In this document: positions 7,933 to 63,835 of the stretch, in pieces
How the letters are laid out: each line of letters begins with the position of its first letter
Numbering within the stretch: the stretch's first letter is position 1
Source of the DNA: Liolophura sinensis
Lineage: Eukaryota; Mollusca; Polyplacophora; Chitonida; Chitonidae
Direction of reading: 5' to 3'
Assembly: GCF_032854445.1 (NCBI RefSeq)
Contig: NC_088295.1
Span: 95,475,805-95,539,804, forward strand
DNA: 64,000 bases
Translations under genes and position numbers: made by a program
Notes under the pieces: model-generated
What the model saw: only the letters and a program-made list of their open reading frames with translations
What the model was told of the DNA's origin: nothing
Databases searched by the model: none

Positions 7933-10900
7933 CTGTAAACAGGAACAGACAACTGCTAAATTTCCCCAAACATTCCCTCCTGAATGTGAATTATCAATCC
8001 TGAAGTCTTTGTATCATTTATTCTACCTATAAACCTGCCTGCTGTTGATTCAGAGAAATATTTATGGATATGGTGTTAAACACCAGTCGAATAAATAAGC
8101 AAATAAAATAAACCCATTATACCCATTTTCGTTTTCATTTAGAAAACGTTTCTAGGCTCATGTAGATCACGGTTGGGAAGACTGTCTTGGAGCAGGATCT
8201 CCGGTGAATCAGAAGTAACAGATGGGACGACTGTTAAATATTGAACAACAGTAACATGTGGATTATTTTGTTCACATATTTGCAGTTATCAGTTACCCAT
8301 GCGTGATTACATCATACAGCTCTTCCAAACCGAATCAAAGATAAGCTTGCTTACACCTTGCCAGTGCATCGAACTTTGACTTACGCATGTTCATGTACGT
8401 GCCTGAATCCTTCATGTACCCAAGCATTTATGTGTTAAGTTTGTCCAGTAAAAATAAATATAAAGGATTTGAATACCGTATAATTAACCGATTTCCACTA
8501 AACTTGCCGCCGTCGTATAAGCGAAATATTCTTGAGCACGGCGTAAAACTCTCATCACACACCTACTTTTCCATTCATCTGTCGAGCCAAATACTGACTT
8601 TTTAACGCGATGACAAAACCTTACTGTTGGAATAATTTATTTATTTATTTGATTGGTATTTTACGCCGTACTCAAGAATATGACTTGGAATGATTTGCTC
8701 TGTAACACATTCCCTCTATAAATAAGTGACAAACATTTCCTGTAAAACTGATATCTCCGGCCAAACATTTGCGGTACAGCTGAGTGCCAATCATTCACTG
8801 TGTAACTGTGTGAACATTTGTGGTATAGCTGAGTGCCAGTCATTTACTGTGTAACTGTATAAACATTTGCGGTATAGCTGAGTGCCTATTAGTTAACGTA
8901 TAACTGAATACATATTTAAGATCCAGTTGAGTGCAAATCACTTAGTGTATAAACATATAGGGTATAGCTAAGTGCCAATCACTTACTGTAATACCGAGTA
9001 CACATTTATGGCACAGCGGAGTGCAAATCATTTAGAGTATAACCGAGTACACATTTATGGCATAGTTGAGTGCCAATCACTTACTGTATGTGTACACATT
9101 TACTGTATAACTGAGTTCATGCATGTATTTATGGTATAACTGAGTGCCAAACACTTACTTGGCGTAGATCTAACCACAGGATACAGCGCTGGCCAGGCAG
9201 AGGAAGACATATGTTTGTTCTCAGTCGTCACGTGTTCTGACGTCACCATGTTGTCATTCGTTACCTCTGCGGGCGACACCATGACATCGGCGTTTCCGTC
9301 TGGTGGTGTTACGTCCGTATATCCCTTTGTCGAGCTCAGCACAGTAACATTGCTTATGTTAGTGGTGAGATCACTGGCCGGTGTTTCTGACTTGATTTCC
9401 GATGGAGTTCCACTGGTTTGTGCGTCAACAATCATCCCTGTGCTGTTCACAAAGTTAGTTGTTTCATTTTCAGAAGGCAGAGTAGAGTCTGCAGTAGTGG
9501 CAAATGACGCCGTTGTAGAGGATAATGCTGGTGGGAAATCTGCTTGTGACATTAAGCCATCTGTAACATTTTCTGTCACAGTCCCGAAAACTTCTGTTGA
9601 TATGGAAGCTGACATGGAACCTAAGGTCGACATGGAATCTGCTGTCGACATAGAATCCACTTCCAGCATGGAATCTGCTGTAGACATAGAATCTACTGCC
9701 AGCATGGAATCTGCTGTTATCATGGAATCTACAGCTAGCATGGAATCTGCTGTTGACATGGAATCTGCTGTTGTCATGGAATCTACTACTAGCATGGAAT
9801 CTGCTGTTGTCATGGAATCTACTAATAACATAGAATCTGCTGTTGACATGGAATCCGCTGTTGACATGGGTTCTGCTTTTGACCCTGGATATTTTGGTGA
9901 CACAGAACTGGATTTATACCTTAATCCAGATGTGGATGCAGTATTTGATGTGAATCTATCTGTACTATCTGCAGACGGTGAAGCCTTTGTCGATGTAACA
10001 GACGTAGCAATAGTGAATGATGGAACGATGAAAGAAGAATGATGGGATGTAGTGAACTTTTCCTGCTTGGAGAGTATCGTCATCTCTGAGGAAAATAAAA
10101 ACAATACGACATGTTAAATATGCGTTTAATTGCTTCTTCAGCAAAATCGCTTAAGCTTCTGGCGACCCTTTGGATAGCGCTGTCGTTGTATATAAGATGC
10201 TGCATGAGATTCTAAATCTGATCAGACCTAGGTTACATTTATTTAGTCACCTTTAGTCACACAAAAATGGTGCCTCAACCCACCCGTATGGAGAGAGCAT
10301 CCGTGGATGTCCATGGAGAGTCGAGCAGGCAGGGGATGAGATAATGGGTATATACGGATGTATCTGGCGATGACAGGACAGTCTAGGTCGTATCTTGTCG
10401 AGGATAGTGGACTGATATCACCCTCGAACATCTGAAATACACGGAAAACAACAACTGGTGATCTAAATACATATATGAAATACACGGAATACAACATCTC
10501 GTACAGTACATGTATGGAATACAGAGAATACAGCATCTGGTGATTAAAGTACATGTATGGAATACAGGGAATACAACATCTGGTAAAGTACATGTATGGA
10601 ATACAGGGAATACACCATCTTGTGATTAAAGTACATGTATGGGAATACAGGGAATACAGCATTTGGTGATTAAAGTACATGTATGGAATACAGGGAATAT
10701 AGCATCTGATGAGTAAAGTACATGTATGGAATACAGGGAATATAGCATCTGATGAGTAAAGTACATGTATGGAATACAGGGAATACAGGTGATTAAAGTA
10801 CATGTATGGAATACAGGGAATACAACATCTGGTGAGTAAAGTACATGTATGGAATACAGGGAATACAACATCTGGTGAGTAAAGTACATGTACGGAATAC

Positions 10901-13900: not shown

Positions 13901-16900
13901 CAGTGTCTTCCAGCCTGACTTACAGCAGTGTTTTCCAGTTTAACTTACAGCAGTGTCTTCCAGCCTGATTTACATCAGTGTCTTCCAGCCTAACTTACAG
14001 CAGTGTCTTCCAGCCTAACTTACAGCAGTGTTTTCCATCCTAACTTACAGCAGTGTTTTCCAACCTGACTTACAGCAGTGTCTTCCAGCCTGACTTACAG
14101 CAGTGTTTTCCAGTTTAACTTACAGCAGTGTCTTCCATCCTAACTTACAGCAGTGTCTTCCAGCCTGACTTACAGCAGTGTCTTCCAGCCTGACTTACAG
14201 CAGTGTTTTCCATCCTAACTTACAGCAGTGTCTTCCAGCCTGACTTACAGCAGTGTTTTCCAGTTTAACTTACAGCAGTGTCTTCCAGCCTGATTTACAT
14301 CAGTGTCTTCCAGCCTAACTTACAGCAGTGTCTTCCAGCCTGACTTACAGCAGTGTCTTCCATCCTAACTTACAGCAGTGTTTTCCAGCCTGACTTACAG
14401 CAGCGTCTTCTATCCTAACTTAGAGCAGTGTTTTCCAGTTTAACTTACAGCAGTGTCTTCCATCCTGACTTACAGCAGTGTCTTTCAGCCTAACTTACAG
14501 CAGTGTCTTCCAACCTAACTTACATCAGTGTTTTCCAGGTTAAATTACAGTAGTGTCTTCCAGCCTGATTTACATTAGTGTCTTCCATCCTGACTCACAG
14601 CAGTGTCTTCCATCCTAACTTACAGCAGTGTTATCCAGCCTGATTTACATCAGTGTCTTCCAGCCTGATTTACATCAGTGTCTTCCAGCCTGATTTACAT
14701 CAGTGTCTTCCAGTTTAACTTACAGCAGTGTCTTCTATCCTGATTTACAGCAGTGTCTTCCACTCCAACTTACAACAGTTTCCCCCATTCATAACTTTCA
14801 GCTTACAGCGGTCAAACTTGGAGCAGTTTCTCACACTCATACCTTACAGCTGGCCTCCACCATCTAACTTACATCGGTACCTTCCACCCAAACTCACAGC
14901 GAGTTTCTCCCACTCTTAACTTACAGTCGGACTTCAATCCCAACTTGTAGCAGTGTTTTCCAGCCTGTCTTATAGTAACTTTGTAATACCTTATCAACCT
15001 AAGCGGTGGCTCTACTGTGGCTTTCAAAAACCTTTCTACTTAACATGCAGCGGTGCCTCCCATTCTAACTTACAGCGGACCTTCCGGTCTAACATACAAC
15101 ACACTTTCTCCCACTTCTCGGACCTTCCACTTTGACTTACAGCGGGTCTTCCACGCTAGCTTACATCGGGCCTTCCACTCTAGCTTACATAGGTCCTCCT
15201 CCCACTCTAACTTAAACAGGCCTTCCGCTCTGTAGTACAACAGGCTTTCTCCCACTCTAACTCTAGTCGGATTTGACTTGTAACAGTGCGTGCCTTCCAT
15301 CCTAACTGATAGCGGTGCCCTCTACCGTAGCTAGCAAATGCTTCCAGTCTAACTTATGGCGGTACCCTCTACCGTAACATCCAAATACCTGCCAGTCTGC
15401 CTATTAGCGGTCCCCTCTAACGTAATTTCCAAATACCTTTCAGTCTAACTTACAGCAGAGCTTTCTTTGCCGGGAAAATTAAAGAAATGCCAATGCCTGT
15501 TGTCCAGGCTATAGTGCAGACGATACTTCGGCAGGTGACGTCCACCTCCAGTTCGTTCACATCCTCTGTTGATAATCGCCCGGATGAGACTTGGGTGCTT
15601 TAAGTCGGCCTGAAAATTAAAAGGTTCCGTGCAGATCAACAATATGCATACGCACTATACCAGTATATAGTTTCATCATTCATAAGATATTTGAGGCCGT
15701 CAGTTGCCAACTAATTTAATAGCTTCTGTTACAACGTCATAACCTTTGGACGAGCGCGTCCTCGTCGGCTTCAACTCCGGCTTTAACTCGCATAATATGT
15801 CAGGAATCTGGCCGGAGGAGATCATGTTCCCCGTAGTTATGCCCCGTGTCCTTCTCGCTAAATACCAATTCTCATACATGCATGTATTGCTTGTATCCTT
15901 GGGTGTTGCAGAGATATATATTTATCCGTACGTACTGGTTTTCACCCATGTATAACGAGAGGGTTTATATTTATGTACTGGTGTTCACACTAGTGCGCTG
16001 AGGAGGTTTATATTTACCTGTATGTACTGGTGTTCACACTAGTGCGCTGAGGAGGTTTATATTTACCTATATGTACTGGTGTTCACACTAGTGTGCTGAG
16101 GAGGTTTATATTTACCTATATGTACTGGTGTTCACACTAGTGTGCTGAGGAGGTTTATATTTACCTGTATGTACTGGTGTTCACACTAGTGTGCTGAGGA
16201 GGTTTATATTTACCTATATCTACTGGTGATCACACTTAAATTGTGCGCTGAGGAGGTTTATATTTACCTATATGTACTGGTGTTCACACTAGTGTGCTGA
16301 GGAGGTTTATATTTACCTATATGTACTGGTGTTCACACTAGTGCGCTGAGGAGGTTTATATTTACCTATATGTACTGGTGTTTACTCTGGTGTGGTGAGA
16401 GGGTTTATATTTACCTATATCTACTGGTGATCACACTTAAATTGTGCGCTGAGGAGGTTTATATTTACCTATATGTACTGGTGTTCACACTAGTGTGCTG
16501 AGGAGGTTTATATTTACCTATATGTACTGGTGTTCACACTAGTGTGCTGAGGAGGTTTATATTTACCTATATGTACTGGTGTTCACACTAGTGTGCTGAG
16601 GAGGTTTATATTTACCTATATGTACTGGTGTTCACACTAGTGTGCTGAGGAGGTTTATATTTACCTATATGTACTGGTGTTCACACTAGTGCGCTGAGGA
16701 GGTTTATATTTACCTATATGTACTGGTGTTCACACTAGTGCGATGAGGAGGTTTATATTTACCTGTATGTACTGGTGTTCACACTAGTGTGCTGAGGAGG
16801 TTTATATTTACCTGTATGTACTGGTGTTCACACTAGTGTGCTGAGGAGGTTTATATTTACCTGTATGTACTGGTGTTCACACTAGTGCGCTGAGGAGGTT

Positions 16901-23195: not shown

Positions 23196-23245
23196 TGTTC
23201 TTGATTGTAGAAGACGAATAGTGATGTAACACCGCATAATTCTCT

Positions 23246-23254
23246 CTATATAGC
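23246..23254 (-). promoter_or_regulatory. TATA box of gene 1
   Basis: The minus strand reads CGCTATATAGAGAG about 55 nt upstream of the ATG at 23195. With the usual 30-nt spacing the transcript would start near 23220, giving a 5' UTR of about 25 nt. Confidence 0.55.
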
Positions 23255-23259
23255 GGTCG

Positions 23260-24016: not shown

Positions 24017-24079
24017 TTTAGATCTGTCAGAATTTAGATCTGTCAGAATTTAGATCTGTCAGAATTTAGATCTGTCAGT
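24017..24079. repeat. 16-bp tandem repeat, four copies
   Basis: Four perfect head-to-tail copies of ATTTAGATCTGTCAGA, each with a BglII-type palindrome AGATCT. Perfect identity suggests a recent expansion. Confidence 0.9.
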
Positions 24080-24169
24080 ACCTCCATGACACAACAGTAT
24101 ACATGCATAGTGGGGAGGCATATGTTCTCACTCTTAAATCTTAAATTCCCAATTTACATATATTTATAC

Positions 24170-24450
24170 TTCCGTTATAGTGTCTATATGGATCTACCTT
24201 ACAAGGCTGGTTGTCCCATCCATATACCCCTATACTTTATAGAGACCAGATGAACCTACCACACAGGGCCTGTTGTCTGATCAACATACGCTTATATGTT
24301 ATAGTGTCTATATGGATCTACCACATAAGGCTGGTTGTCCGATCCATATACCCTTATATGTTATAGTGACTAGATGAACCTACCACACAGGGCTGGTTGT
24401 CCTATCCATATACCCTTATATGTTATAACGACTAGATGGACCTACCACAC
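24170..24450. repeat. about 63-bp tandem repeat
   Basis: Roughly four units built on CTTATATGTTATAGTGTCTA, TATGGATCTACCACATAAGG, CTGGTTGTCCGATCCATATA. Confidence 0.8.
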
Positions 24451-29251: not shown

Positions 29252-32200
29252 GTATTTGACCCTCACACATTTCTAACTGCACATAAACTTGTAAGGCCAT
29301 AAGTACAAAGTTTTTATTTTTATGATGTACCAGTATGTTTTTTTTAGCTGATAGCTATATGAAGCTATAGCTAACTTTTGCAAGAAAATAGGAATCCATT
29401 ACATGCAGTATTTAAAAACTGTTGCCTCTATCTATGAATAACAGATCTTATTTATTAAAAGTTTCTTGACCAGAATTATATCATTTAAAGACTTGAATTG
29501 TAAGAAGGGCAAGATAGACCTGTTGATGGTGACAGGTGGCATCACAGGGACTTTGTAATTTTGATATTACATGAAGCTACATAGTCATGGAATAATCTAC
29601 ATGGCCCAGAGTAAAAAACACAAACAGGTGATGTTATTGTTGCTTTATATGTGAAGATACTTTGAAACAGTTTTCAGTGGTGTGTTTTTTGCTCGTGTTG
29701 ACCTTTCCCTTACCAGCAACCACTTACTGTTTATTTTCTGGTTTATGAGATACTCAAACAAGCACTCAGATGCATGACTTTAGAAAAACTGATTTCTGAC
29801 TGCTTTTTAAATTTGTTGATTCCATTATGTGTGTTTTCAAGACGAGCACTGCACGAGTTCACCCAGAACGAAGATGTGAGGCGGTCTATTTGTGTACATA
29901 AACCCGGGGCCGTCAAGGGAGATAGTCGTGTCTCTGCACCCTCCTGAGAACCTCTCTTCCAAATCTGTCTTCTTCATCAAGACAAACTCAGGAATCAAAC
30001 TAACAAATGAAAACATGGGTGAGTCTGAAATACGGCCAGTACACATTTGTACAGGTGGGGAGCATCAGTAATCAAGTCTTATGTATGGGCTGAATACATA
30101 CCAGTACTCATATTCTACAAATGAGGAGTAACCAAGTCTTTATGTATGGAGTGAATGCAAACCAGTTCACATATTTCACAAATGAGGAGTAACCAAGTCT
30201 TTATTTATGGGCTGAATACAAACTAGTACTCATATTCTACAAATGAGGAGTAACCAAATCTTTATTTATGGGCTGAATACAAACCAGTACTCATATTCTA
30301 CAAATTAGGAGTAACCAAGTCTTTATGTATGGAGTGAATGCAAACCAGTTCACATATTTCACAAATGAGGAGTAACCAAGTCTTTATTTATGGGCTGAAT
30401 ACATACCAGTACTCATATTCTACAAATTAGGAGTAACCAAGTCTTTATGTATGGAGTGAATGCAAACCAGTTCACATATTTCACAAATGAGGAGTAACCA
30501 AGTCTTTATTTATGGGCTGAATACATACCAGTACTCATATTCTACAAATGAGGAGTAACCAAGTCTTTATTTATGGGCTGAATACAAACCAGTACTCATA
30601 TTCTACAAATTAGGAGTCACCAAGTCTTTATGTATGGGCTGAATACATACCAGTACTCATATTCTACAAATTAGGAGTAACCAAGTCTTTATGTATGGAG
30701 TGAATGCAAACCAGTTCACATATTTCACAAATGAGGAGTAACCAAGTCTTTATTTATCGGCTGAATACAAACTAGTACTCATATTCTACAAATGAGGAGT
30801 AACCAAGTCTTTATGTATGGAGTGAATGCAAACCAGTTCACATATTTCACAAATGAGGAGTAACCAAGTCTTTATTTATGGGCTGAATACAAACTAGTAC
30901 TCATATTCTACAAATGAGGAGTAACCAAGTCTTTATTTATGGGCTGAATACAAACCAGTACTCATATTCTACAAATTAGGAGTAACCAAGTCTTTATGTA
31001 TGGAGTGAATGCAAACCAGTTCACATATTTCACAAATGAGGAGTAACCAAGTCTTTATTTATGGGCTGAATACATACTAGTACTCATATTCTACAAATTA
31101 GGAGTAACCAAGTCTTTATGTATGGAGTGAATGCAAACCAGTTCACATATTTCACAAATGAGGAGTAACCAAGTCTTTATTTATGGGCTGAACACAAACT
31201 AGTACTCATATTCTACAAATGAGGAGTAACCAAGTCTTTATTTATGGGCTGAATACATACCAGTACTCATATTCTACAAATTAGGAGTAACCAAGTCTTT
31301 ATGTATGGGCTGAATACAAACCAGTACTCATATTCTGCAAATGAGGAATAACCAAGTCTTTATGTATGGGCTGAATACAAACCAATACTCATATTCTACA
31401 AATGAGGAGTAACCAAGTCTTTATGTATGGGCTGAATACAAACCAGTACTCATATTCTACAAATGAGGAGTAACCAAGTCTTTATGTATGAGCTGAATAC
31501 ATACCAGTACTCATATTCTACAAATTAGGAGTAACCAAGTCTTTATGTATGGAGTGAATGCAAACCAGTTCACATATTTCACAAATGAGGAGTAACCAAG
31601 TCTTTATTTATGGGCTGAATACAAACTAGTACTCATATTCTACAAATGAGGAGTAACCAAGTCTTTATTTATGGGCTGAATACATACCAGTACTCATATT
31701 CTACAAATTAGGAGTAACCAAGTCTTTATGTATGGGCTGAATACAAACCAGTACTCATATTCTGCAAATGAGGAATAACCAAGTCTTTATGTATGGGCTG
31801 AATACAAACCAATACTCATATTCTACAAATGAGGAGTAACCAAGTCTTTATGTATGGGCTGAATACAAACCAGTACTCATATTCTACAAATGAGGAGTAA
31901 CCAAGTCTTTATGTATGAGCTGAATACATACCAGTACTCATATTCTACAAATTAGGAGTAACCAAGTCTTTATGTATGGAGTGAATGCAAACCAGTTCAC
32001 ATATTTCACAAATGAGGAGTAACCAAGTCTTTATTTATGGGCTGAATACAAACTAGTACTCATATTCTACAAATGAGGAGTAACCAAGTCTTTATTTATG
32101 GGCTGAATACATACCAGTACTCATATTCTACAAATTAGGAGTAACCAAGTCTTTATGTATGGGCTGAATACAAACCAGTACTCATATTCTGCAAATGAGG

Positions 32201-35200: not shown

Positions 35201-38200
35201 TATGTATGGAATGAATGCAAACCAGTTCACATATTTCACAAATGAGGAGTAACCAAGTCTTTATTTATGGGCTGAACACAAACTAGTACTCATATTCTAC
35301 AAATGAGGAGTAACCAAGTCTTTATTTATGGGCTGAATACATACCAGTACTCATATTCTACAAATTAGGAGTAACCAAGTCTTTATGTATGGGCTGAATA
35401 CAAACCAGTACTCATATTCTGCAAATGAGGAATAACCAAGTCTTTATGTATGGGCTGAATACAAACCAATACTCATATTCTACAAATGAGGAGTAACCAA
35501 GTCTTTATGTATGGGCTGAATACAAACCAGTACTCATATTCTACAAATGAGGAGTAACCAAGTCTTTATGTATGAGCTGAATACATACCAGTACTCATAT
35601 TCTACAAATTAGGAGTAACCAAGTCTTTATGTATGGAGTGAATGCAAACCAGTTCACATATTTCACAAATGAGGAGTAAGCAAGTCTTTATTTATGGGCT
35701 GAATACAAACTAGTACTCATATTCTACAAATGAGGAGTAACCAAGTCTTTATTTATGGGCTGAATACATACCAGTACTCATATTCTACAAATTAGGAGTA
35801 ACCAAGTCTTTATGTATGGGCTGAATACAAACCAGTACTCATATTCTGCAAATGAGGAATAACCAAGTCTTTATGTATGGGCTGAATACAAACCAATACT
35901 CATATTCTACAAATGAGGAGTAACCAAGTCTTTATGTATGGGCTGAATACAAACCAGTACTCATATTCTACAAATGAGGAGTAACCAAGTCTTTATGTAT
36001 GGAGTGAATGCAAACCAGTTCACAATTTCACAAATGAGGAGTAACCAAGTCTTAATTTATGGGCTGAATACAAACCAGTACTCATATTCTACAAATGAGA
36101 AGTAACCAAGTCTTTATATATGGGCTGAATACAAACCAGTGCTCATATTCTACAAATGAGGAGTAACCAAGTCTTTATGTATGGAGTGAATGCAAACCAG
36201 TTCACATATTTCACAAATGAGGAGTAACCAAGTCTTTATGTATGGGCTGAATACAAACCAGTACTCATATTCTACAAATGAGGAGTAACCAAGTCTTTAT
36301 GTATGGAATGAATGCAAACCAGTTCACATATTTCACAAATGAGGAGTAACCAAGTCTTAATTTATGGGCTGAATACAAACCAGTACTCATATTCTACAAA
36401 TGAGGAGTAACCAAGTCTTTATTTATGGGCTGAATACAAACCAGTACTCATATTCTACAAATGAGGATTAACCAAGTCTTTATGTATGGGCTGAGTACAA
36501 ACTTGCTGTACAAATATCTTCTATACACCAGCAAGAAAATGAAGATATTTTAGCTGCTTATGTCAAAGTGCGCATTTCTGTTTGTGCTACATAACATCTG
36601 CACTGTGCAACAAATATTGCTGTTTTAGTATTTCTGTCATCACTCTGAGGACCGGTTTAATGAGACTGCTAAGATTGCATTTTTGAAGAGGGTCAAGTTT
36701 TAGTGATTAAAGCATCTGATGCATATACATGGCACATGGGATGCCTTCTGGATGCCGATTGTTTTATTGCTATGAGGGGGCCTCCATGGCTTCGTTGGTT
36801 AGTGCGTTAGCACAGCGTAATGACCCAGGAGCCTCTCATCAATGCGGTTGCTGTGAGTCCAGCTCATGCTGGCTTCCTCTCTGCCCGTATGTGGGAAGGT
36901 ATTGCGTCATATAAGTAAAATATTCTTGAGTGTGGTGTAAAAAACCAATCAAGTAAATAAATAAATCATTGCTATGAGAATGTTGTCTGATTACAGATGA
37001 GGAGGTGATGTATGTGAGAAAGTTTGCTAGTTTTACAGATGAGGAGGTGATGAATGTGAGAATGTTGTCTGGTTACAGATGAGGTGGTGATGAATGTGAG
37101 AATGTTGTCTGGTTACAGATGAGGTGGTGATGTATGTGAGAATGTTGTCTAGTTACAAATGAGATAGTGATGTATGTGAGAATGTTTTCTGATTACAGAT
37201 TAGATGGTGATGTATGTGAGAAAGTTTGCTAGTTTTACAGATGAGGAGGTGATGAATGTGAGAATGTTTTCTGATTACAGATGAGGTGGTGATGTATGTG
37301 AGAAAGTTTGCTAGTTTTACAGATGAGGAGGTGATGAATGTGAGAATGTTTTCTGATTACAGATGAGGTGGTGATGTATGTGAGAAAGTTTGCTAGTTTT
37401 ACAGATGAGGAGGTGATGAATGTGAGAATGTTGTCTGGTTACAGATGAGGTGGTGATGAATGTCAGAATGTTGTCTGGTTACAGATGAGGTGGTGATGAA
37501 TGTGAGAATGTTGTCTGGTTACAGATGAGGTGGTGATGAATATCAGAATGTTGTCTGGTTACAGATGAGGTGGTGATGTATGTGAGAAAGTTTGTTAGTT
37601 TTACAGAAGAGGAGGTGATGTATGTGAGAATGTTTGTCTGATTACAGATGAGGTGGTGATGAATGTGAGAAAGTTTGCTAGTTTTACAGATGAGGAGGGG
37701 ATGTATCTGACAATGTTTGTTGGTTGTAGATGAGGAGGTGATGTATGTGAGAAAGTTTGCTAGTTTTACAGATGAGGAGGTGATGAATGTGAGAATGTTG
37801 TCTGGTTACAGATGAGGTGGTGATGTATCTCACAATGTTTGTTGGTTGTAGATGAGGAGGTGATGTATGTGAGAATGTTTTCTGATTACAGATTAGATGG
37901 TGATGTATGTGAGAAAGTTTGCTAGTTTTACAGATGAGGAGGTGATGAATGTGAGAATGTTGTCTGGTTACAGATGAGGTGGTGATGTATGTGAGAATGT
38001 TTGCTGGTTACAGATGAGGAGGTGATGTATGTGAGAAAGTTTGCTAGTTACAGCTGAGGAGGTGATGTATGTGAGAAAATTTGCTGGTTGCAGATGAGGG
38101 GTTGATTATGAGAATTTTTGCAGGTTATAGATGAGGTGCTCTATGTGAAAGTGTTTTTGTATATAGATGAGAGAGTGATGTAGGTGAGAAAGTTAGCTAT

Positions 38201-41200
38201 TTACACATCAGGAGGTGCTGTATGTGAGAGTGTTTGCAGGTTACAGATGAGGGGGTGATGTACTGTAAATGCCTTTTTATTCGCGTTGTACTAACATTCG
38301 TGGATTTCGCAGCAAACATATTTCCGCAAAAATAAGTACCAAGGAATGTAAACCCATGTAAGTAATTACAGTTATAAATTCGTTAACAAGCACTACAGTT
38401 CTAATACTTTTTCAAACACGTTAATTAGAAATACCTAATTAAAATGTATTCCAGTTTTCACAAATCCAGCTTACTTGATCGTCAGTTAATGTTGCTTTCT
38501 TTTAAGGAGGCTTAGCTCTGTCTAAGTATCACCACATTGCAACATTGTTGTGGTTGATTTATTGAGACATACAAATGGATAATTTGTACTGGGTGTGTGT
38601 ACGTCATACGATATACATACCATGAGAGAGGTTGTTTGTTTATTGACTATACTTGCCTTCCAGTCAGATCAACTTTCCGATGCACCCAACACATTGCTCG
38701 GGGGTTTCCGCACTTCAAACTTCCTCTTCAAAATGATGATTTCTTAGAAACTTACTCAAATCTGTCACGGGGGCCTCCGTGGCTCAGTTGGTTAGCGCGC
38801 TAGCACAGCGTAGTGACCCAGGAGTCTCTCACCAAAGCGGTCGCTGTGAGTTCAAATCCAGCTCATGCTGGCTTCCTCTTCGGCCATACGTGGGAAGGTC
38901 TGCCAGCAACCTGCGGATGGTCGTGGGTTTCCTCCGGCCTCTGCCCGGTTTCCACCCACAATAATGCTGGCCGATGTCGTATAAGTAAAATATTTTTGAG
39001 TACGGCGTAAAATACCAATCAAATAAATAAATAAATAAACAAATCTGTCACAGTTAACTCAGAGTTTCACTCACACTACTGATGCATGAGAATTAAACAG
39101 TGGGATTTATTTGTATCACATTTAATCCTTCGTGGTCTCCTGGAGTGAGTGACACGAATAATTGCTAACACAGGAGGTAAGGGCTTCTTTTTATAAAGAT
39201 TAACAGTCTTCAATAGAGTAAAAGCTTAGGAGGATTAACTTCCTTTGTCTGATCAAGTTACTGCATTGCATAGAATTTTTGTCACATCTTACAGTTACAA
39301 ACAAGTTTAAATGATAACATTGTTACTTGAATGCTTGAGTTGTTTTATTACTTGATGTTTTTGTATTGAAATTTGATTTTTGTTTATAAGTTGTCCAAAA
39401 ATTCTATTAAGATCTGCGAAAGTTGATTCCAGCAAATGTTGTCTTCTGACCAAATCCGCGAAAGTTTATGCCTGCGAAAAGGCATTTACAGTATGTGAGA
39501 ATGTTTGCTGTTTACAGATGAGAAGGTGATGTATGTGAGAATGTTTTCTGGTTACAGATGAGGTGGTGATGTATGTGAGAATGTTTTCTGGTTACAGATG
39601 AGAAGGTGATGTATGTGAGAATGTTGTCTGGTTACAGATGAGGTGGTGATGTATCTGACAATGTTTGCTGGTTACAGATGAGAAGGTGATGTATGTGAGA
39701 ATGTTTGCTGGTTACAGATGAGAAGGTGATGTATCTGACAATGTTTGCTAGTTACAGATGAGAAGGTGATACATGTGAGAATGTTTGCTGGTTACAGATG
39801 AGGTGGTGATGTATGTGAGAAAGTTTGCTGGTTTTACAGATGACAAGGTGATGTATGTGAGAATGTTGTCTGGTTACAGATGAGGTGGTGATGTATGTGA
39901 GAATGTTTTCTGGTTACAGATGAGGAGGTGATGTATGTGGACTGTAGCTCCCAACCTCTGGAGCACCTCAACTTGCTCACCCGCCAGGTCTTCCTTCCCT
40001 TCCTCTGTACTAATCAAAACCTGGCGGATGCCTCGGGAATGAACGCAGACAAGCTGATGGATGTCCTCCACAAACTAATGGCAACCGTGGAGGTTACACA
40101 AGGTCAAATTGAGGTACAGAAGGGCAACTTGTTGTCATGATTGTTGTTGATGTATTTTGATGTTGTCTCCCCTGATTTGCAGTTAAACCTGTTACTCATA
40201 TAATGTATCATAGTGAAACAGCTGCCATTAAAGTTATGCCTTGTCATTTAGAATGATCTGTTGTAAAAGTATAGTTGTTAGTGGATTTTACCAGTGTTCT
40301 GTCATGAATTCTATAATTATACTGGAAATTTCTTGTGACCATATTGGCTGTGAACATGGTCAGTTACATGTACCTAATCCTGAAAATGGTATTATCAAGC
40401 AATCAGATCATTCAAATTAACTTATGAAACATTAATGATTTCGTATTGGGCTATAATGATCTTGTTCAAAGCATCAGCTAACCCTACAAAAAGTTCAAAC
40501 ATAAACATTGAGTAATCTTTTAAACTCAGCCCCTTAGCCTTGATTGTGCAGTCATGATTTATTCAGGGTAAGCTGGTACTGAGCCTCCCATCGGTAGAAG
40601 TGTTGGCTGAAGCAGCGGCTAACCCTAACAGAAGAGCATCGGTTCTGCATGTCCTAGAAACCACTGTGATTGGCTGGATCAAACAAATCAAGGTAGGCTG
40701 CATGCCTATGCAATAAGGCCAGATTCACAGTAATCAGAAGGTATTGACATGCCTATAAATTAGGGCATACAATGAGGGTTTTGTGAAATTAATATACTGT
40801 ATACTTTTAATAACAATAATTTGGTAGTTTTTCAGAAGTTAATTTTTTAAGATTTCATGGCGGACATACATGTAGGTCACAATGCTTGCATACTACCTGC
40901 AGGTAATTGACATGCTGGCCTCCAAATAAGTGAGTAGGTGTAAAACACTAATCAAATAATTAAATGAATAAGTTTACCTGTCTTCCTGGACAGATTGTGC
41001 TGAGACATGAGCCACTTGGGGACTTGTACAGTAAGTTTGGCCCAGAACCAGGACCCCTGGATGAGGTAGAGATGTGGGAGAGTCAGTTATCCCGACTACA
41101 CTCCCTTAATCAGCAGCTGGACACCCCGATAGCCAGGGACATCCTGCTGAACCTAGAACAGGCCAACAGTCAGTACGCTCACTCCTTCTGTCAGGTCAGG

Positions 41201-44200
41201 AAGGACATCAACAAGGTAATGTCTGCAGCTTTCTTGTATGAGAAACCAACTTCACCCTTCTGTTCTATCTGCAAAAGGTCTCAACTAGAAACTATCAACG
41301 GTCAACTGTGCCAGCTAGATACATCTAGTATGAAGAACTACAGATTTTAAGCAGTAGTCATTTCTTCTAGGTATCAATGAAATCGAGAACTACAAGCCAG
41401 CAGTGTTTAATTATGGTAGCTAAATAGTATTGAAAGATTGATACTTGACGTCACTGGAATTAAGGCTGATATGTATAAGGTAGGATCTGATAATGGATGT
41501 GACTGGAATAGGGGCAGATATATGACATCACTGGAATAAGGTTGATAAGGGACGTCACTGAATAAGGACTGATAAAGAAGGTCAGTGGAATAGGGGCTAA
41601 TAAGAGGCATCAATGGAATAGGGACTGATAAGAGACATCAGTGGAATAGTGACTGATAAGAGACATCAGTGGAATAGTGGCTGATAAGAGTCATCAATGG
41701 AATAGTGACTGATAAGAGACATCAGTGGAATAGTGACTGATAAGAGACATCAATGGAATGGGGGCTGATAAGAGGCATCAATGGAATAGGGACTGATAAA
41801 AGACATCAATGGAATAGGGACTGATAAGAGACATCAATGGAATGGGGGCTGATAAGAGGCATCAATGGAATGGGGGCTGATAAGAGACATCAATGGAATA
41901 GTGACTGATAAGAGGCATCAGTGGAATAGTGACTTATAAGAGACATCAGTGGAATAAGGACTGATATGAGACATCAATGGAATAGTGACTGATAAGAGGC
42001 ATCAATGGAATAGTGACTGATAAGAGACATCAGTGGAATAGTGGCTGATAAGAGCCATCAATGGAATAAGGACTGATAAGAGACATCAATGGAATGGGGC
42101 CTGATAAGAGCCATCAATGGAATAGTGACTGATAAGAGACATCAATGGAATAGTGACTTATAAGAGACATCAGTGGAATAAGGACTGATAAGAGACATCA
42201 ATGGAATAGTGACTGATAAGAGACATCAGTGGAATAGTGGCTGATAAGAGACATCAATGGAATAGGGACTGATAAGAATCATCAATGGAATAGGGACTGA
42301 TAAGAGACATCAATGGAATAGGGACTGATAAGAGACATCAATGGAATAGGGGCTGATTAGAGGCATCAATGGACTAGTGACTGAAAAGAGACATGATTGG
42401 AATAGGGGCTGATAAGAGACATCAATGGAATGGGGGCTGATAAGAGGCATCAATGGAATAGGGACTGATAAGAGACATCAATGGAATAGTGACTGATAAG
42501 AGACATCAGTGGAATAAGGACTGATAAGAGACATCAATGGAATGGGGGCTGATAAGAGACGTCAATGGAATAGTGACTGATAAGAGACATCAATGGAATA
42601 GTGACTGATAAGAGACATCAATGAAATAGTGACTGATAAGAGACATCAATGGAATGGGGGCTGATAAGAGACATCAATGGAATAGTGACTGATAAGAGAC
42701 ATCAATGGAATGGGGACTGATAAGAAACGTCAGAATACAGACTTATAAGGGATATTAGTGAATAGGGGTAAGTGGGGACTGATATGGGACATCAGTGAAA
42801 AATGGGTTGACAAGGGACATTATTAGAATCAGGATTGATAAGGGATGCGAGTGTAATAGGTGCTAATGAGGGACATCAGTGAAAAAGGGACATCATTGGA
42901 ATAGGGATTGAAAATTGTTTTAAGTGGAATAACATTGCTGGTGTTGGTTTATCCCCATTGCAATGTATCAGGCTCTCACTGTCAGATTTTACTAGTACTT
43001 AATAGTACTTTATACTGAGGACTGGGGAGTTTTGTTTGGGATATGTAGTTGATACATTGTATGTGTGGTAATGTCCATAAAGGAACAGAATACTCTGTAG
43101 ACCAGCTCATCGGCAGATCACAGTCTTACAATTCAATTATGACATAAACACAAATGAGCCAAAAAGCCTTTCATGCTTTTGCAAATGTAATTTGAAATAA
43201 TGATAGTCAATGGCAATAGAGAAGAGAGCAAAAAATTCAATGAAGGCAACATTTAAGAAACATATGTTAAAATTTCATAAGGTATTTCAGATGGTCAAGG
43301 TTTTCTCCTCTGACTCTATCTCATTTCCTCTCATCATTGTTGAGTACGGCATAATCCAGAAATCAATTTAAATAAATAAATAAATTAAAATTTCATAGAT
43401 TTAATGTGCAGAAATGATTGAGTTTATACCATTGAAAAACTTTGATGTATGTGCATTATGTCTTATTTGGAAATAGGCAGTAACTGAGACCCAGAAGATT
43501 CTGCGCTTCCTGCATGCCATGTTCACATGGTTTGAGGATTTACATAGAGCCATGGAGCCCCAGCCTATGATCACCACCATGAAGCCTCTAATGACAGCTC
43601 TTAACCTTGTCTGGACCCACTCTAGGTAAGGCGTCTGATGATAGCTCTTAACCTTGTCTTGACCCACTCGCGCGCTAGCGCAGCGTAATGACCCAGGATC
43701 CTCTCACCAATGCGGTCGCTGTGAGTTAAAGTCCAGCTCATGCTGGCTTTCTCTCCGGCCGTAAGTTGGAAGGTCTGGCAGCAACCTGCGGATGGTCGTG
43801 GGTTTCCCCCGGGCTGTGCCTGGTTTCCACCCACCATAATGCTGGCCGCCGTTGTATAAGTGAAATATTCTTGAGTACGGCGTAAAACACCAATCAAAAA
43901 AAAAAAAAAAAAAAAAGATCTTGACCCACTCTAAGTAAGGCCTCTGATGGCGGCTCTTAACCTTGCCTGGACCCAATCTAGGTAAGGCCTCTGATGATGG
44001 CTCTTAGCCTTGTCTGGACCCACTCTAGGTAAGGCCTTTGAGGATGGCTCTTAACCTTGTCTGGGCCCACTCTAGGTAAGGCCTCTGATGACAGCTCTTA
44101 ACCTTGTCTGGATCCACTCTAGGTAAGGCCTCTGATGACTGCTCTTAACCTTGTCTGGACCCACTCTAAGTAAGGCCTCTGATGACAGCTCTTAACCTTG

Positions 44201-62200: not shown

Positions 62201-63835
62201 TAAGAGTTGTCAGACAGCCCCTCTTGGTAAGGTACAAGTTGTCAAACAGCCCCTCTTGGTAAGGTACAAGTTGTCAAACAACCCCTCTTGGTAAGGTGGA
62301 AGTTGTCAGACAACCCCTCTTGGTAAGGTGGCAGTATTCATACGGCCCCTCGTGGTAAGGTAGCAGTTGTCAGACAGCCCCTCTTGGTAAGGCAGAAGTT
62401 GACAGATAGCCCTTCTTGGTAAGGTAAGAGTTGTCAGACATCCCCCTTTTTGTAAGTTAGAAGTTGTCAAATAGCCCCTCATGGTAAGGTGGAAGTTGTC
62501 AAACAGCCCCTCTTGGTAAGGTAGGAGTTTGCAGACAGCCCCTTTTGGTAATGTAGCAGTTGTCAGACAGCCCCTCTTGGTAAGGTAAGAGTTGTCACAC
62601 AGCCTCTCTTGGTAAGGTGGAAGCTGTCAGACAGCCCCCCTTGGTATGGTAGAAGTTGTCAGACAGCCCTCTTGGTAAGGTAAGAGTTGTCAGATGGCCC
62701 CTCGTGGTAAGGTAGAAGTTGTCAGACAGCCCCTCTTGGTAAGGTAGAATTTGTCAGACATCCCCCTCTTCGTAAGGTAGTAGTTGTCAAATAGCCCCTC
62801 TTGGTAAGGTGGAAATTGTCAAACAGCCCGTCTTGGTAAGGTAGGATTTCGCAGACAGCCCCTTTTGGTAAGGTAGCAGTTGTCAGACAGCCCTTCTTGG
62901 TAAGGCAGCAGTTGTCAAACAGCCTCTCTTGGTAAGGTACAAGTTGTCAAACAGCCCCTCTTTGTAAGGTACAAGTTATCAGACATCCCCCTTTTTGTAA
63001 GGTAGAAGTTGTCAAATAGCCCCTCTTGGTAAGGTGGAAGTTGTCAAACAGCCCCTCTTGGTAAGGTACAAGTCAAACAGCCACTCTTGGTAAGGTACAA
63101 GTTGTCACACAACCCCTCTTGGTAAGGTAGAAGTTGTCAGACAGCCCCTCTTGGTATGGTAGCAGTTGTCAGACAGCCCCTCTTGGTAAGGTGGAAGTTG
63201 TCAGACAGCCCCTCTTCGTAAGGTAGAAGTTGTTAGACAGTCCCTCTTGGTGAGGTGGAAGTTGTCAAACAGCCCCTCTTGGTAAGGTAGAGGTTGTCAG
63301 ACAGCCCCTTTTGGTAAGGTAGAATTTGTCAACAGCCTCTCCTGGTAAGGTAGAAGTTGTCAGACAGCCCCTCTTGGTAAGGTAAGAGTTGCCAGACAGC
63401 CCTCCATCTTAAGTTTTTCTTGTTAGGTGGATATTCATTTTATGCTGATAGTACTGTATGTCTGTGATGGGTATACAGCTGGTCAGGTGAGGGGATATAT
63501 GTATCTTCACTATCCTGTTTTACAGCTGCTCGTGTCTGTTGCAGATAGCAGAGGAGTATGATGAGGAACTGGAGATACGCCCTCAAGCCGTCCATGTTAA
63601 CCTGGATCCTAAACTGCTGCTGTTGATGAAGGAAGTGCACTACTTGCACCGTGAACCGTTCAGCATCAAGCTACCTCAACCTGCCAAAGAGTTAATTCGC
63701 CACACAGACTCCCTGCAGCTGAGGGTGACAGCCACAAGACTGGAGACCATTGTGTCCAAGTATAACACCATCCTGAAAACCATCACAGACTATGAACGGC
63801 CTCTGTTTGAACGGAAACTGGATAAAGTGGATCAG
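29145..63835 (+). CDS. axonemal dynein heavy chain, N-terminal tail (partial, 15 exons, continues right)
   Basis: Model: join of 29145-29251, 29842-30018, 39920-40113, 40567-40692, 40994-41215, 43477-43625, 46106-46217, 46415-46536, 48942-49136, 49714-49945, 50207-50326, 52207-52374, 53697-53800, 54171-54249, 63545-63835. Every junction is GT-AG and the phases agree, apart from one surplus base in exon 2. The 2.4 kb of coding sequence gives about 800 residues, all belonging to the DHC_N1 tail region that binds intermediate chains and neighbouring heavy chains. Marks include EDNR...ALHEF near the start, PLDEVEMWESQLSRLHSLNQQL, LNLVWTHSRYY, YNMPPIVSRLLWVHALKERI and YERPLFERKLDKVD. The order matches the DNAH9/11/17 type more than DNAH5/8, but the chain is divergent, so I give no symbol. 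The motor (AAA) domains lie beyond the window. It would drive ciliary or flagellar beating. Confidence 0.85.
29842..30018 (+). CDS. dynein exon 2 (carries an apparent +1 frameshift)
   Basis: The acceptor is GTTTTCAAG and the donor is ATGG|GTGAGT. The 5' half reads RRALHEFTQNEDV in the frame set by exon 1. The 3' half is only protein-like one frame over: GLFVYINPGPSREIVV, SLHPPENLSSKSVFFIKTNS. The switch lies at about 29879-29884 (GAGGCGGT). Unshifted, a TGA follows at 29945. The exon is 177 nt, whereas phase from exon 1 to exon 3 requires 176 (mod 3), consistent with one extra base. Confidence 0.78.
30013..36495 (+). repeat. 61-bp donor-anchored minisatellite in dynein intron 2
   Basis: About 105 units of 61 bp: TATGGGCTGAATACAAACCA, GTACTCATATTCTACAAATG, AGGAGTAACCAAGTCTTTAT, G. 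The first unit is the exon 2 donor region itself: ACATGG|GTGAGTCTGAAATAC, GGCCAGTACACATTTGTACA, GGTGGGGAGCATCAGTAATC, AAGTCTTATG. Later copies have lost GTGAGT (ATGGGCTGAATAC). A subtype with TTCTGCAAATGAGGAATAAC recurs about every 427 bp (7 units), so a higher-order repeat is present. Confidence 0.9.
36777..36967 (+). mobile_element. SINE (copy 2), internally deleted
   Basis: Head GGGGCCTCCATGGCTTCGTT, box A-like TTGGTTAGTGCGTTAGCACA and 3' end TTGAGTGTGGTGTAAAAAAC. About 70 bp of body between GTGGGAAGGT and GTCATATAAG is missing. It is bounded by an 11-bp target-site duplication, ATTGCTATGAG, at 36766-36776 and 36968-36978. Confidence 0.9.
36985..38262 (+). repeat. 40-bp acceptor-anchored minisatellite, left block (dynein intron 2)
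   Basis: About 30 units: GGTTACAGATGAGGTGGTGA, TGTATGTGAGAATGTTGTCT. Each contains TTACAG|ATGAGG(A/T)GGTGATGTATGTG, identical to the acceptor and first 20 nt of exon 3 at 39920. The block is interrupted at 38263 by a DNA transposon and resumes at 39494. Confidence 0.92.
38263..39491. mobile_element. non-autonomous TIR element with TA target duplication
   Basis: Ends are CTGTAAATGCCTTTTTATTC at the left and GCGAAAAGGCATTTACAG at the right, inverted copies of each other, flanked by TA at 38261-38262 and 39492-39493. Removing the element restores the minisatellite unit GTGATG-TA-TGTGAGAA exactly. TA duplication plus TIRs point to the Tc1/mariner superfamily or a TA-targeting MITE. Without the nested SINE it is about 0.95 kb and encodes no transposase. 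Confidence 0.85.
38769..39039 (+). mobile_element. full-length SINE (copy 3) nested in the TIR element
   Basis: Head GGGGGCCTCCGTGGCTCAGT, box A-like CAGTTGGTTAGCGCGCTAG, box B-like GAGTTCAAATCC, 3' end TTGAGTACGGCGTAAAATAC and an (AAAT)n tail. The 12-bp duplication CAAATCTGTCAC is at 38757-38768 and 39040-39051. The near-canonical box A and B make this the copy most like a Pol III promoter. Confidence 0.92.
39494..39939 (+). repeat. 40-bp acceptor-anchored minisatellite, right block ending in exon 3
   Basis: About 11 units continuing the array at 36985. The last unit, TTCTGGTTACAG|ATGAGGAGG and TGATGTATGTG, is the real 3' splice site and exon 3 start. The unit is therefore 20 nt of intron end and 20 nt of exon, copied upstream about 40 times. 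Confidence 0.93.
39920..40113 (+). CDS. dynein exon 3
   Basis: 194 nt, phase 1 to 0. It encodes DEEVMYVDCSSQPLEHLNLL, TRQVFLPFLCTNQNLADASG and so on to TQGQIE. PLEHLxxLxxxVxLPxL is the conserved early-tail segment of DNAH9/11-type chains. Donor GAG|GTACAG. Many upstream copies of its acceptor exist in the array before it. Confidence 0.88.
40567..40692 (+). CDS. dynein exon 4
   Basis: 126 nt, 42 codons, phase 0. GKLVLSLPSVEVLAEAAANP then VLETTVIGWIKQIK. The (E)GKxxLxLP and VxxWxxQI segments are standard in dynein tails. Acceptor TTTATTCAG, donor AAG|GTAGGC. Confidence 0.9.
40912..40973 (+). mobile_element. degenerate SINE tail close to exon 5
   Basis: ATGCTGGCCTCCAAATAAGT, GAGTAGGTGTAAAACACTAA, TCAAATAATTAAATGAAT is a decayed SINE 3' end. 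It finishes about 20 bp before the exon 5 acceptor, so it may supply part of the polypyrimidine or branch region. Confidence 0.5.
40994..41215 (+). CDS. dynein exon 5
   Basis: 222 nt, 74 codons, phase 0. IVLRHEPLGDLYSKFGPEPG, PLDEVEMWESQLSRLHSLNQ, QLDTPIARDILLNLEQANSQ. G-P-x-x-E-(V/I/L)-x-(F/M)-W is the DHC_N1 signature for the segment that meets the intermediate chains. Donor AAG|GTAATG. Confidence 0.92.
41430..42900 (+). repeat. 28-bp minisatellite in dynein intron 5
   Basis: About 48 units of GATAAGAGACATCAATGGAA followed by TAGTGACT, most regular between 41600 and 42740. There is weak resemblance to the exon 5 end (AGGACATCAACAAG|GTAATG against GAGACATCAATGGAATAGTG), too weak to call it junction-derived. 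Confidence 0.9.
43338..43388 (+). mobile_element. SINE 3' fragment
   Basis: TTGTTGAGTACGGCATAATC then CAGAAATCAATTTAAATAAA resembles the SINE 3' end and tail. The body is absent. Lies 90 bp before exon 6. Confidence 0.55.
43477..43625 (+). CDS. dynein exon 6
   Basis: 149 nt, phase 0 to 2. AVTETQKILRFLHAMFTWFE, then MEPQPMITTMKPLMTALNLV and WTHS. The (L/I)xLVWxHSxxY motif is a landmark of the tail and is completed by exon 7. Acceptor GGAAATAG, donor TCTAG|GTAAGG. Confidence 0.92.
43585..45715 (+). repeat. 47-bp donor-anchored minisatellite in dynein intron 6 (41 nt of exon in each unit)
   Basis: About 40 units: CCTCTGATGACAGCTCTTAA, CCTTGTCTGGACCCACTCTA, GGTAAGG. Exon 6 ends CCTCTAATGACAGCTCTTAA, CCTTGTCTGGACCCACTCTA, G|GTAAGG, so the unit is the last 41 exon bases plus the first six of the intron. 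Most copies still hold a GTAAG or GTGAG donor. Some units lack a few bases (CCCATTAAGTAAGG). A SINE interrupts the second unit. Confidence 0.95.
43670..43919 (+). mobile_element. 5'-truncated SINE (copy 4) inside the 47-bp array
   Basis: Starts within box A (GCGCGCTAGCGCAGCGTAAT) and runs to TTGAGTACGGCGTAAAACAC with a pure A tail of about 22. The 12-bp duplication CTTGACCCACTC, itself minisatellite sequence, is at 43658-43669 and 43920-43931. Confidence 0.92.
46106..46217 (+). CDS. dynein exon 7
   Basis: 112 nt, phase 2 to 0. RYYHQMDKFHNLLRLISNEV then VHRAQAMVGEDILREPLQ, the xYYxxxxKxxxLLxxIxNxxV segment after the WTHS motif. Acceptor GGTCATAG, donor CAA|GTAAGT. The preceding 45716-46105 and following 46218-46414 hold nothing else. 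Confidence 0.9.
46415..46536 (+). CDS. dynein exon 8
   Basis: 122 nt, phase 0 to 2. SYSKLKDALRVCAAFRGTYL then DYKDRADDVNAKTIAENEEK. The L..AL.VC..F...Y..Y pattern is a tail helix. Donor AAGCA|GTAGGT. The frame would hit TAG right after the donor, so splicing is required. Confidence 0.9.
46537..48014. other. dynein intron 8, unique part
   Basis: AT-rich single-copy intron except for one short retroposon fragment at 47081. Short open frames (for example 47560-47841 plus) show no protein-like pattern. Confidence 0.5.
47081..47155 (+). mobile_element. short 3'-end retroposon fragment (LINE-tail type)
   Basis: ATATGACTGAAAAATTGTTG then AGTACGACGTTAAACCCCAA and GCACTCACTCAC. It is flanked by an 8-bp duplication, AGCTTCGG, at 47073-47080 and 47156-47163. 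The sequence is the 3' end of the LINE at 452-620. Confidence 0.75.
48015..48870. repeat. 96-bp dimeric minisatellite (two 48-bp halves) in dynein intron 8
   Basis: Units alternate between type A (GACTATCCTCATGGTACAAA... TTTGTCTATGTA) and type B (GACAATTCTTGTGGTGCAGG... TGTGTCTATAAA), each 48 bp. Some AA and BB steps occur. The 48-bp period keeps frames open on both strands (about 200 codons). Not clearly related to exon 8 or 9 edges. Confidence 0.9.
48942..49136 (+). CDS. dynein exon 9 with an acidic insertion
   Basis: 195 nt, phase 2 to 2. HNQADGTLFKARLYGPNAYV, PRFGLRHSDPTASDSSLGED, EIWTDSPWPPRNAACFNLLN, SFMER. FNLLNSFMERxxDV is the usual FxxFxxRxxxL helix. The preceding 40 residues, rich in S, D, E and P, are not a part of the tail I recognise from other chains. 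Acceptor ATTTGCAG, donor GAGAG|GTAGGA. Confidence 0.85.
49314..49474 (+). mobile_element. 5'-truncated SINE (copy 5)
   Basis: Begins CCGTAAGTGGGAAGGTCTGC, ends TTGAGTACGGCGTAAAACAC plus an A tail of about 24. The 11-bp duplication TCAAACTAAGA is at 49303-49313 and 49475-49485. Lies in dynein intron 9. Confidence 0.9.
49714..49945 (+). CDS. dynein exon 10
   Basis: 232 nt, phase 2 to 0. CNDVLELVETTRHFRLLAGA, then GSMSLDAMVKEIHKKYQIAM, DKFFSVVDNILNIDGSQTFE, KAFFTFRTVVK. It follows the family's layout of a helix, then a short insert, then the xFxxDYxxFxxxVxxLD-like helix (here EKAFFTFRTVV). Donor AAG|GTATTT. Confidence 0.88.
50207..50326 (+). CDS. dynein exon 11
   Basis: 120 nt, 40 codons, phase 0. 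MLEKQLAEILRQAFQQCHTL then GAQLRLLEVFEGISSRELVQ. LxxxLxxAFxxCxxxxxxxxLLExFxxxxxR is a well-conserved tail segment. Acceptor GTAAACAG, donor GTACAG|GTACAG. Confidence 0.92.
50308..51945 (+). repeat. 51-bp donor-anchored minisatellite in dynein intron 11
   Basis: About 33 units: AGTACAGGTACAGTATATCT, GAGGATGTGCACACCTGTAG, TGTAGAGAGCC, plus shorter variants of about 39 bp missing ACAGGTACAG. Exon 11 ends AGTCGAGAGCTAGTACAG|GTACAGTATATCTAAGG, so about 20 nt of exon and 31 nt of intron form the unit and CAG|GTACAG is repeated in full-length copies. Confidence 0.93.
52207..52374 (+). CDS. dynein exon 12
   Basis: 168 nt, 56 codons, phase 0. LYLKDKDDMLVESYTLELEC, VRNMFQQQCRRTPLHYNMPP, IVSRLLWVHALKERIK. 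The N(M/Q)PPxxxxLxWxxxLxxRI motif is among the most conserved in the DHC_N1 region. Acceptor GTTCTGCAG, donor AAG|GTGAGT. Confidence 0.94.
52820..53700 (+). repeat. 41-bp acceptor-anchored minisatellite in dynein intron 12, 123-bp higher-order unit
   Basis: Units of about 41 bp (TGTGTTAGTCCTGTGGATAT, ATTGATAGCCTAC...) form regular 123-bp trimers from about 52960 to 53640. The last units resemble the real acceptor: GTGTCAG|TGTCCCATGGAGA at exon 13 against GTGTCAGTGTCCTGTGGATA. Open for 283 codons because 123 is divisible by three; this is not a gene. Confidence 0.9.
53697..53800 (+). CDS. dynein exon 13
   Basis: 104 nt, phase 0 to 2. CPMEKMRKVSPHSLEGERGW then QMRDAYDDILKGLN. It corresponds to the xPMxxxxxxxxxxxEGxxxxxxYxxxxxxLxxFE region. 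Donor ACGA|GTTAGT is weak, but joining to exon 14 gives LNDFETEL, as expected. Confidence 0.88.
54171..54249 (+). CDS. dynein exon 14
   Basis: 79 nt, phase 2 to 0. FETELIGGWKESLTSELSAR then LKQPLL. ExxLxxxW...(L)xxPLL is conserved. Acceptor GTTGTACAG, donor CTGTTG|GTAAGG; that donor is the seed of the 9-kb array which follows. Confidence 0.9.
57341..57402 (+). mobile_element. LINE-tail retroposon fragment inside the 32-bp array (first copy)
   Basis: CTCGTCGTCATAATGACTGA, AAAATTGTTGAGAACGACGT, TAAACCCCAAGCACTCACTC. Flanked by the 11-bp duplication TCAAATAGCCC (57330-57340 and 57403-57413), which is minisatellite sequence. Confidence 0.88.
61410..61470 (+). mobile_element. LINE-tail retroposon fragment inside the 32-bp array (second copy)
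   Basis: Same insertion as at 57341 with the same 11-bp duplication TCAAATAGCCC (61399-61409 and 61471-61481). It differs by one base (CATATGACTG against CATAATGACTG). A copy made by segmental duplication, not an independent insertion. Confidence 0.9.
63545..63835 (+). CDS. dynein exon 15
   Basis: 291 nt, 97 codons, phase 0. IAEEYDEELEIRPQAVHVNL, DPKLLLLMKEVHYLHREPFS, then SKYNTILKTITDYERPLFER, KLDKVDQ. VNxDPxLxxLxxEVxYL and YNxxxxTxxxxExPLxxxxLxxxD are strong dynein tail signatures just before the end of DHC_N1. Acceptor CTGTTGCAG, donor CAG|GTAAGG. Confidence 0.95.

Follow-up and report, generated by a model that had tools for sequence, protein, structure and literature searches.

Minisatellites that copy the splice junctions of their own introns in dynein and other genes of the chiton Liolophura sinensis

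In the genome of the chiton Liolophura sinensis, minisatellites with repeat units that span the splice junction of their own intron are a real structure. They are described here from a window of 64,000 nucleotides (NC_088295.1, positions 95,475,805 to 95,539,804), from the continuation of a dynein gene beyond it and from other loci. The arrays are very probably 'mirage' minisatellites, which would have originated as small duplications in tandem over a junction already in place and later expanded, with the exon-side copy remaining the splice site and the further copies becoming intronic.

Results

Genes and exons of the window

Tandem arrays found with Tandem Repeats Finder (TRF) make up 62% of the window, the end of which sits 0.9 Mb short of the end of C1, the contig of 96,433,062 bases that carries it. 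The window contains the 5' portion of a gene for an axonemal dynein heavy chain and a second gene, gene 1, on the opposite strand (Table 1). Splice sites throughout rest on homology, phase and splice signals. The positions of the first 15 dynein exons follow from open reading frame, splice signals and phase. Exons 3 to 15 give a joined translation that is in frame and free of stops, and in a protein search, from which exons 1 and 2 were omitted, it matches the flagellar outer-arm beta heavy chain (E 2.7e-87). The alignment is gap-free at the borders of exons 6/7, 11/12, 12/13 and 14/15. Exon 2 (29842-30018) has a one-base frame change, which may be an assembly error, a polymorphism or a damaged allele. 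At 40090-40131 the donor edge of dynein intron 3 is similar to the end of the preceding exon (20 bp, two copies, 81%), possibly a very old duplication or a chance one.

The F5/8 type C domain of gene 1 scores 33.1 bits against a cut-off of 28.2 (PF00754). A coding exon of this gene (9610-9883, reverse strand) contains an in-frame 18-bp tandem repeat of the TADSM kind, an exonic minisatellite beside the intronic ones. An open frame at 2-451 resembles the RNase H portion of non-LTR retrotransposons and may derive from one.

The accessible text of the genome paper gives HiFi reads with a mean of 8.3 kb at 14x (PMC11068029), so the copy numbers of long arrays may be wrong. According to the same text, scaffold_1 starts with a telomeric repeat and has none at its end. 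The species of that paper was renamed L. sinensis by a correction (PMC12441733). Contig C99 has seven COX1 matches spaced approximately 15.5 kb apart, a concatemer of the mitochondrial genome that is probably an assembly artefact. On the mitochondrial contig ND5, ND4, ND4L, CYTB and ND1 share one strand, and COX1, ATP6, ND3, COX3 and an ND2-like frame lie on the opposite one. ND6 and COX2 were positioned by eye, the ND6 frame having no Pfam match. This arrangement is of the mollusc type, and a lancelet host, which had been considered since mirages occur in that group, was rejected.

Repeat units match their own junctions

To score an array, its TRF consensus unit was laid over each junction and extended ungapped into exon and intron, and mismatches were subtracted from matches (score T). 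The nearest upstream donor and the nearest downstream acceptor were taken as an array's own junctions. The null is formed by the units set against all non-own junctions, which gives 3,966 pairs with a 99th percentile of 10 and a maximum of 14. Scoring covered arrays with a TRF score of at least 100 and a period of at least 12, up to position 122,200 of the joined window and from window position 8,765 upwards, below which gene 1 has no model. This left 44 arrays, 29 in the dynein gene, 10 in gene 1 (including the exonic 18-bp repeat at 9610-9883) and 5 in a second dynein gene on C12. Where an array overlaps its own junction the consensus includes the border copy, which in the worst case is one in 3.4 copies (15294-15456).

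The comparison of own with foreign junctions that the first-pass annotation had proposed was run on these 44 arrays. Twenty of them score above 14 at an own junction, beyond every foreign pair (13 of 29 in the dynein gene, 5 of 10 in gene 1 and 2 of 5 in the C12 dynein). At least five exon nucleotides are part of the unit in 15 of the 20 (10 dynein, 3 gene 1, 2 C12). In the other five (dynein arrays 52806, 105332 and 121097; gene 1 arrays 10436-11459 and 8765-9089) the intron side matches the junction and almost nothing matches past it. Both junction types are affected, with donor-type and acceptor-type arrays in the passing set. Dynein array 108955 exceeds the null in a gapped version only (36 vs 14). 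It is one of the 24 arrays whose own junctions are not above the null in the ungapped test, and junction seeding is therefore not the sole source of arrays.

Table 1. Genes and tandem arrays of the window, with scores T at the own junction
Feature	Start	End	Strand	Remarks
49-bp array at donor 9159 (gene 1 intron 6), intron side only	8765	9089	-	T 27, exon score 1
Gene 1	9159	23195	-	F5/8 type C (discoidin) domain and Ser/Thr-rich exon; first exon resembles a signal peptide (putative)
43-bp array, gene 1 intron 4 acceptor, intron side only	10436	11459	-	T 21, exon score 1
25-bp array, gene 1 intron 4 donor, 6-12 nt of exon	12508	14779	-	T 19; 73 exact donor copies
Initial, diverged part of the array at the gene 1 intron 4 donor, with a 47-bp double unit in 3.4 copies	15294	15456	-	T 18, exon score 5
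49-bp array, gene 1 intron 3 donor, 27-35 nt of exon	15972	19051	-	T 65; 40 exact donor copies
5' part of axonemal dynein heavy chain gene	29145	63835	+	15 exons in window; DHC_N1 matches; closest to outer-arm beta chains
61-bp array, dynein intron 2, claimed donor type	30067	36502	+	T 5 ungapped; gapped 12 vs null maximum 13; intron side alone 18 vs 12
Second block of the dynein intron 2 acceptor 40-bp unit	36975	38262	+	T 58; 1.7 kb upstream of exon 3
40-bp array, dynein intron 2 acceptor, intron edge and ~20 nt of exon 3	39491	39939	+	T 52 vs this array's null maximum 13; extends 20 nt into exon 3
Dynein exon 3	39920	40113	+	Source of the intron 2 acceptor array
47-bp array, dynein intron 6 donor, ~36-40 nt of exon	43919	45713	+	T 70
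51-bp array, dynein intron 11 donor, 13-17 nt of exon	50313	51942	+	T 47; donor nine-mer in 19 exact copies
~41/123-bp array, dynein intron 12 acceptor	52806	53697	+	T 27, exon score 1; intron side matches up to the junction, exon side at chance level
32-bp array, dynein intron 14 donor, 13-17 nt of exon	54233	63402	+	T 43; 9.2 kb; real donor nine-mer in 165 exact copies

Ten cases of a unit copying the adjacent junction had been listed by the first-pass annotation. Those at dynein donors 6, 11 and 14, dynein acceptor 2 and gene 1 donors 3 and 4 hold with at least five exon nucleotides, and those at dynein acceptor 12, gene 1 acceptor 4 and gene 1 donor 6 hold on the intron side only. The remaining one, the 61-bp unit at the dynein intron 2 donor, stays below the null maximum both ungapped and gapped and rises above it on the intron side alone.

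Each unit matches its own junction only, and the units differ from one another in length and sequence. This bears out the earlier view of a repeated local process. A single spreading repeat family, or a mobile element inserting at splice sites, might account for the one unit that is common to the two intron 2 blocks, and is extremely improbable given units that are each private to a junction. Between the intron 6 donor at 43625 and its array lie one diverged copy of the unit and a SINE-like insert. The latter (43663-43905), which separates donor from array, and a second sequence at 36780-36965 have A-rich tails, and both resemble tRNA-derived SINE copies. A literature search with the SINE tail gave no match.

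Splice signals within the copies

GT or AG is retained in the consensus of 17 of the 20 arrays analysed for this, two short arrays being left out; it is lost in arrays 71984 and 103247 and in gene 1 array 52542. Exact copies of the donor nine-mer vary in number, down to 1 in array 71984 and 0 in gene 1 array 54912. AG|GT had been described as intact in the 47-, 49- and 51-bp units, which is correct for the 49- and 51-bp units; the consensus of the 47-bp unit reads AA|GT.

Because the exon-side copy is consistent with the conserved protein, it is taken as the working splice site. The lengths of the six dynein donor-type units that pass the ungapped test are multiples of three in two cases (51 and 63) and not in the others (47, 32, 62 and 103), so that use of the next donor would mostly shift the frame. 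Conservation among copies is 0.936 in exon-derived columns and 0.920 in intron-derived columns (n=13, p 0.08), and such near-equality is expected if the copies are non-coding. Selection on the decoy sites was considered and rejected: splice columns show no consistent difference in conservation from the rest, and exon- and intron-derived columns do not clearly differ.

Junction arrays outside the window

The next 58-60 kb or so of the dynein gene, which the first-pass annotation had not covered, contain 19 scored arrays, and 7 of these lie over a junction of their own intron. A 103-bp array begins 47 nt within its exon, and a 65/66-bp array copies the exon start that codes for EEGPLALLHN. Altogether 12 of the 76 modelled dynein junctions bear a junction array. 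In the second dynein gene (C12:3.956-3.986 Mb) arrays make up 7% of the sequence, and the two of its five arrays that are of junction type comprise one acceptor (exon-side score 22) and one donor (exon-side score 9). At C12:18.59-18.62 Mb (30 kb, 3% arrays) three arrays viewed by eye without a gene model displayed no junction copy.

A further 16 arrays on C1 (0-14.9 Mb) were chosen by donor pattern only and fetched with up to 4 kb of upstream sequence. In five of these the unit includes an exon tail, with T of 57-68 against a null of at most 14 (eight foreign junctions each). The exons of four are confirmed and belong to genes for an ankyrin, a Fe-hydrogenase-like protein, a SNF2-type helicase, whose closest chains are presumably Mot1/BTAF1, and 2-oxoglutarate dehydrogenase, where the exon aligns right up to the donor. 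The fifth (L030) has an open frame without a Pfam match. Three arrays match on the intron side only, with scores of 16-22: L025, where the exon is that of an alpha-L-fucosidase, and L018 and L028, whose exons gave no database match. The L018 donor site would be of the GC type. For the other eight no exon could be made out at the edge; L024, the one of them that was scored, is at chance (9). At least three (L015, L022 and L023) still look repetitive upstream of the TRF array, so that the edge was perhaps not reached. This makes at least seven genes with the pattern, namely both dyneins, gene 1 and those for the ankyrin, the Fe-hydrogenase-like protein, the helicase and 2-oxoglutarate dehydrogenase.

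A likely excess of arrays at junctions

If tandem duplications arise equally anywhere in introns and junctions, and those internal to exons are purged, the share at junctions is a matter of chance. With the two intron 2 acceptor blocks counted once and the stretch 99529-101885 counted twice, 12 of 28 dynein arrays are junction arrays, a count that includes the intron-side-only arrays. The present non-array intron length predicts 3.0 (p 7.5e-6). Some downstream dynein exons are unplaced, and one run with 90 junctions allows for them. Short ancestral introns of 418 bp, the median of array-free introns, raise the expectation to 5.5 of 28 (p 0.003). Outside the window 2.1-3.9 are expected against 7 of 19 (p 0.002 to 0.065), the part that loses significance being the one with short ancestral introns. 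When at least five exon bases are required, 9 arrays stand against 2.5-2.8 expected (p about 0.0005 to 0.001), and 5 against 1.8-2.0 outside the window (p 0.02-0.04). An excess of junctions over uniform seeding, of approximately 2-4 fold, is likely, its magnitude depending on the assumed ancestral intron length.

Donor words point in the same direction across the genome. MAGGTRAGT occurs 33,605 times and the reversed word 24,368 times, and tandem triples number 1,295 for donor words against 372 for the reversed word. Corrected for single-word counts, donor words are in tandem approximately 2.5 times as often as reversed words. These matches are not independent of each other, and counted as arrays on C1 (0-14.9 Mb) they amount to 16 vs 6 among the matches listed; among the six control arrays, the one at 14.407 Mb also contains a donor-like AAG|GTAAAT. 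As true donor words are always genic, a surplus of arrays in genes would likewise raise the donor-word counts. Of the 13 reversed-word arrays on C1 among the matches listed, 10 fall within the first 18 Mb or beyond 82 Mb, and since such arrays are denser at its ends, minisatellites in general seem to be crowded near chromosome ends.

Discussion

Where duplications start

The first-pass annotation had supposed that junction duplications are tolerated because one copy stays functional. That one exon-side copy is kept and the rest become intron is upheld, but tolerance on its own predicts approximately 3-5.5 junction arrays of 28 and 12 are found; with a 2-4 fold excess it may not suffice. Uniform seeding with tolerance is nevertheless quite possible, if somewhat short of an even chance, as the expectation climbs with short ancestral introns, and it is confronted with the excess under either intron length and with the tandem donor words. 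We would give a comparable standing, again a little below even, to junctions as preferred starts, where a property of the border (for example R-loops, a nucleosome edge, a GC step or microhomology between splice sites) would promote duplication. The excess, the involvement of donor as well as acceptor ends and the genome-wide enrichment of donor words speak for such starts. Against them count the shrinking of the excess with the assumed ancestral intron length and the non-independence of the word matches. In its widest form the idea is a tentative one that we rather doubt: junctions would be hot spots of tandem-repeat birth in this mollusc, several-fold above the intron interior, and a sizeable share of intronic minisatellites and much intron growth near chromosome ends would stem from copied splice sites.

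Probable growth of existing introns

In the mirage reading, a small tandem duplication would start over an existing splice junction and then expand, presumably by slippage or unequal exchange. Selection on the protein would keep the exon-side copy, which stays the splice site. The other copies would become intron, in which splice signals persist for a while, probably unused, and would drift and homogenise like ordinary minisatellite DNA. Arrays that match on the intron side only may be of older date: in the border copy the intron part would still be homogenised with the array and the exon part fixed by the protein, while the exon part of the other copies would have drifted.

Duplication of AG|GT segments had earlier been invoked as a precedent for either gain or growth of introns. 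Had these introns arisen from an exonic AG|GT segment duplicated in tandem, a model for which the accessible text of a review lists 188 cases in other species (PMC3443670), the AG|GT kept in some units would be explained, and the unit should match both ends of the intron. Instead, the donor-type units score 4-7 at the acceptor of their own intron in 8 of 9 strong arrays with a modelled acceptor, the null maximum being 14. The ninth, array 99482, reaches 12, which exceeds the null of that array (10) and stays below the overall maximum; two further donor-type arrays have no modelled acceptor. The lack of a clear acceptor match makes the introns appear grown rather than created by duplication, so that of the two only growth is retained and gain is very improbable.

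Comparison with known systems

A literature search, with most subscription papers outside it, found no report of junction-spanning minisatellites in molluscs. In the accessible text of a comparative chiton paper (PMC12005716) 'intron' occurs only in the reference list and 'minisatellite' is absent. If present in several unrelated mollusc genes, mirages, so far described from a handful of lancelet genes, would become a general way in which introns grow. An intron in which the working donor recurs in up to 165 exact copies is a natural experiment on the choice of the spliceosome among equals, and the junction excess turns the place where tandem duplications start into a testable question.

Lancelet mirages are reportedly the subject of a study by Canestro in 2002. 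They are described, in the accessible text of later papers, as minisatellite-like duplications of intron/exon boundaries, in Adh3 and the globins BflGb6 and BflGb9 (PMC3087553) and in troponin C and PGBD5 (PMC3902484). The chiton arrays share with them the minisatellite-like array, a unit over its own exon-intron boundary, the involvement of donor and acceptor ends, and AG/GT in many but not all copies. Lancelet mirages are further characterised by length polymorphism, somatic instability and undisturbed splicing, the last said to be suggested by the Adh3 and globin data (PMC3087553, accessible part); the chiton arrays are known from one assembly, with protein homology that fits the exon-side copy. 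They differ in their mollusc host and in their size, with hundreds of copies and up to 9 kb compared with 3 and 6 copies in lancelet BflGb6.

Other systems are more distant. The AG|GT intron-gain cases, as far as the review describes them in its accessible part (PMC3443670), likewise involve a segment with a splice motif duplicated in tandem and decoy sites, whereas in the chiton the duplication spans an existing junction and enlarges the intron, with no sign of a new one. The minisatellite of IFI6 (6-16), which likewise lines up donor sites in tandem where an exon ends, yields multiple splice donors (Turri 1995, as cited in the accessible text of PMC4526556); its downstream units serve as donors, while the chiton copies are described at the level of sequence. 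Human segmental duplications hold tandem repeats, some at exon-intron boundaries, with similar units of approximately 30 bp that alter gene structure, but half of them lie in coding sequence, and the boundary ones reportedly give rise to new introns in recent paralogues (PMC2812944, accessible part). The structure itself is therefore already known from lancelets. To it are added here a mollusc host, its occurrence in no fewer than seven genes, array sizes that run to hundreds of copies and an initial estimate of the junction excess.
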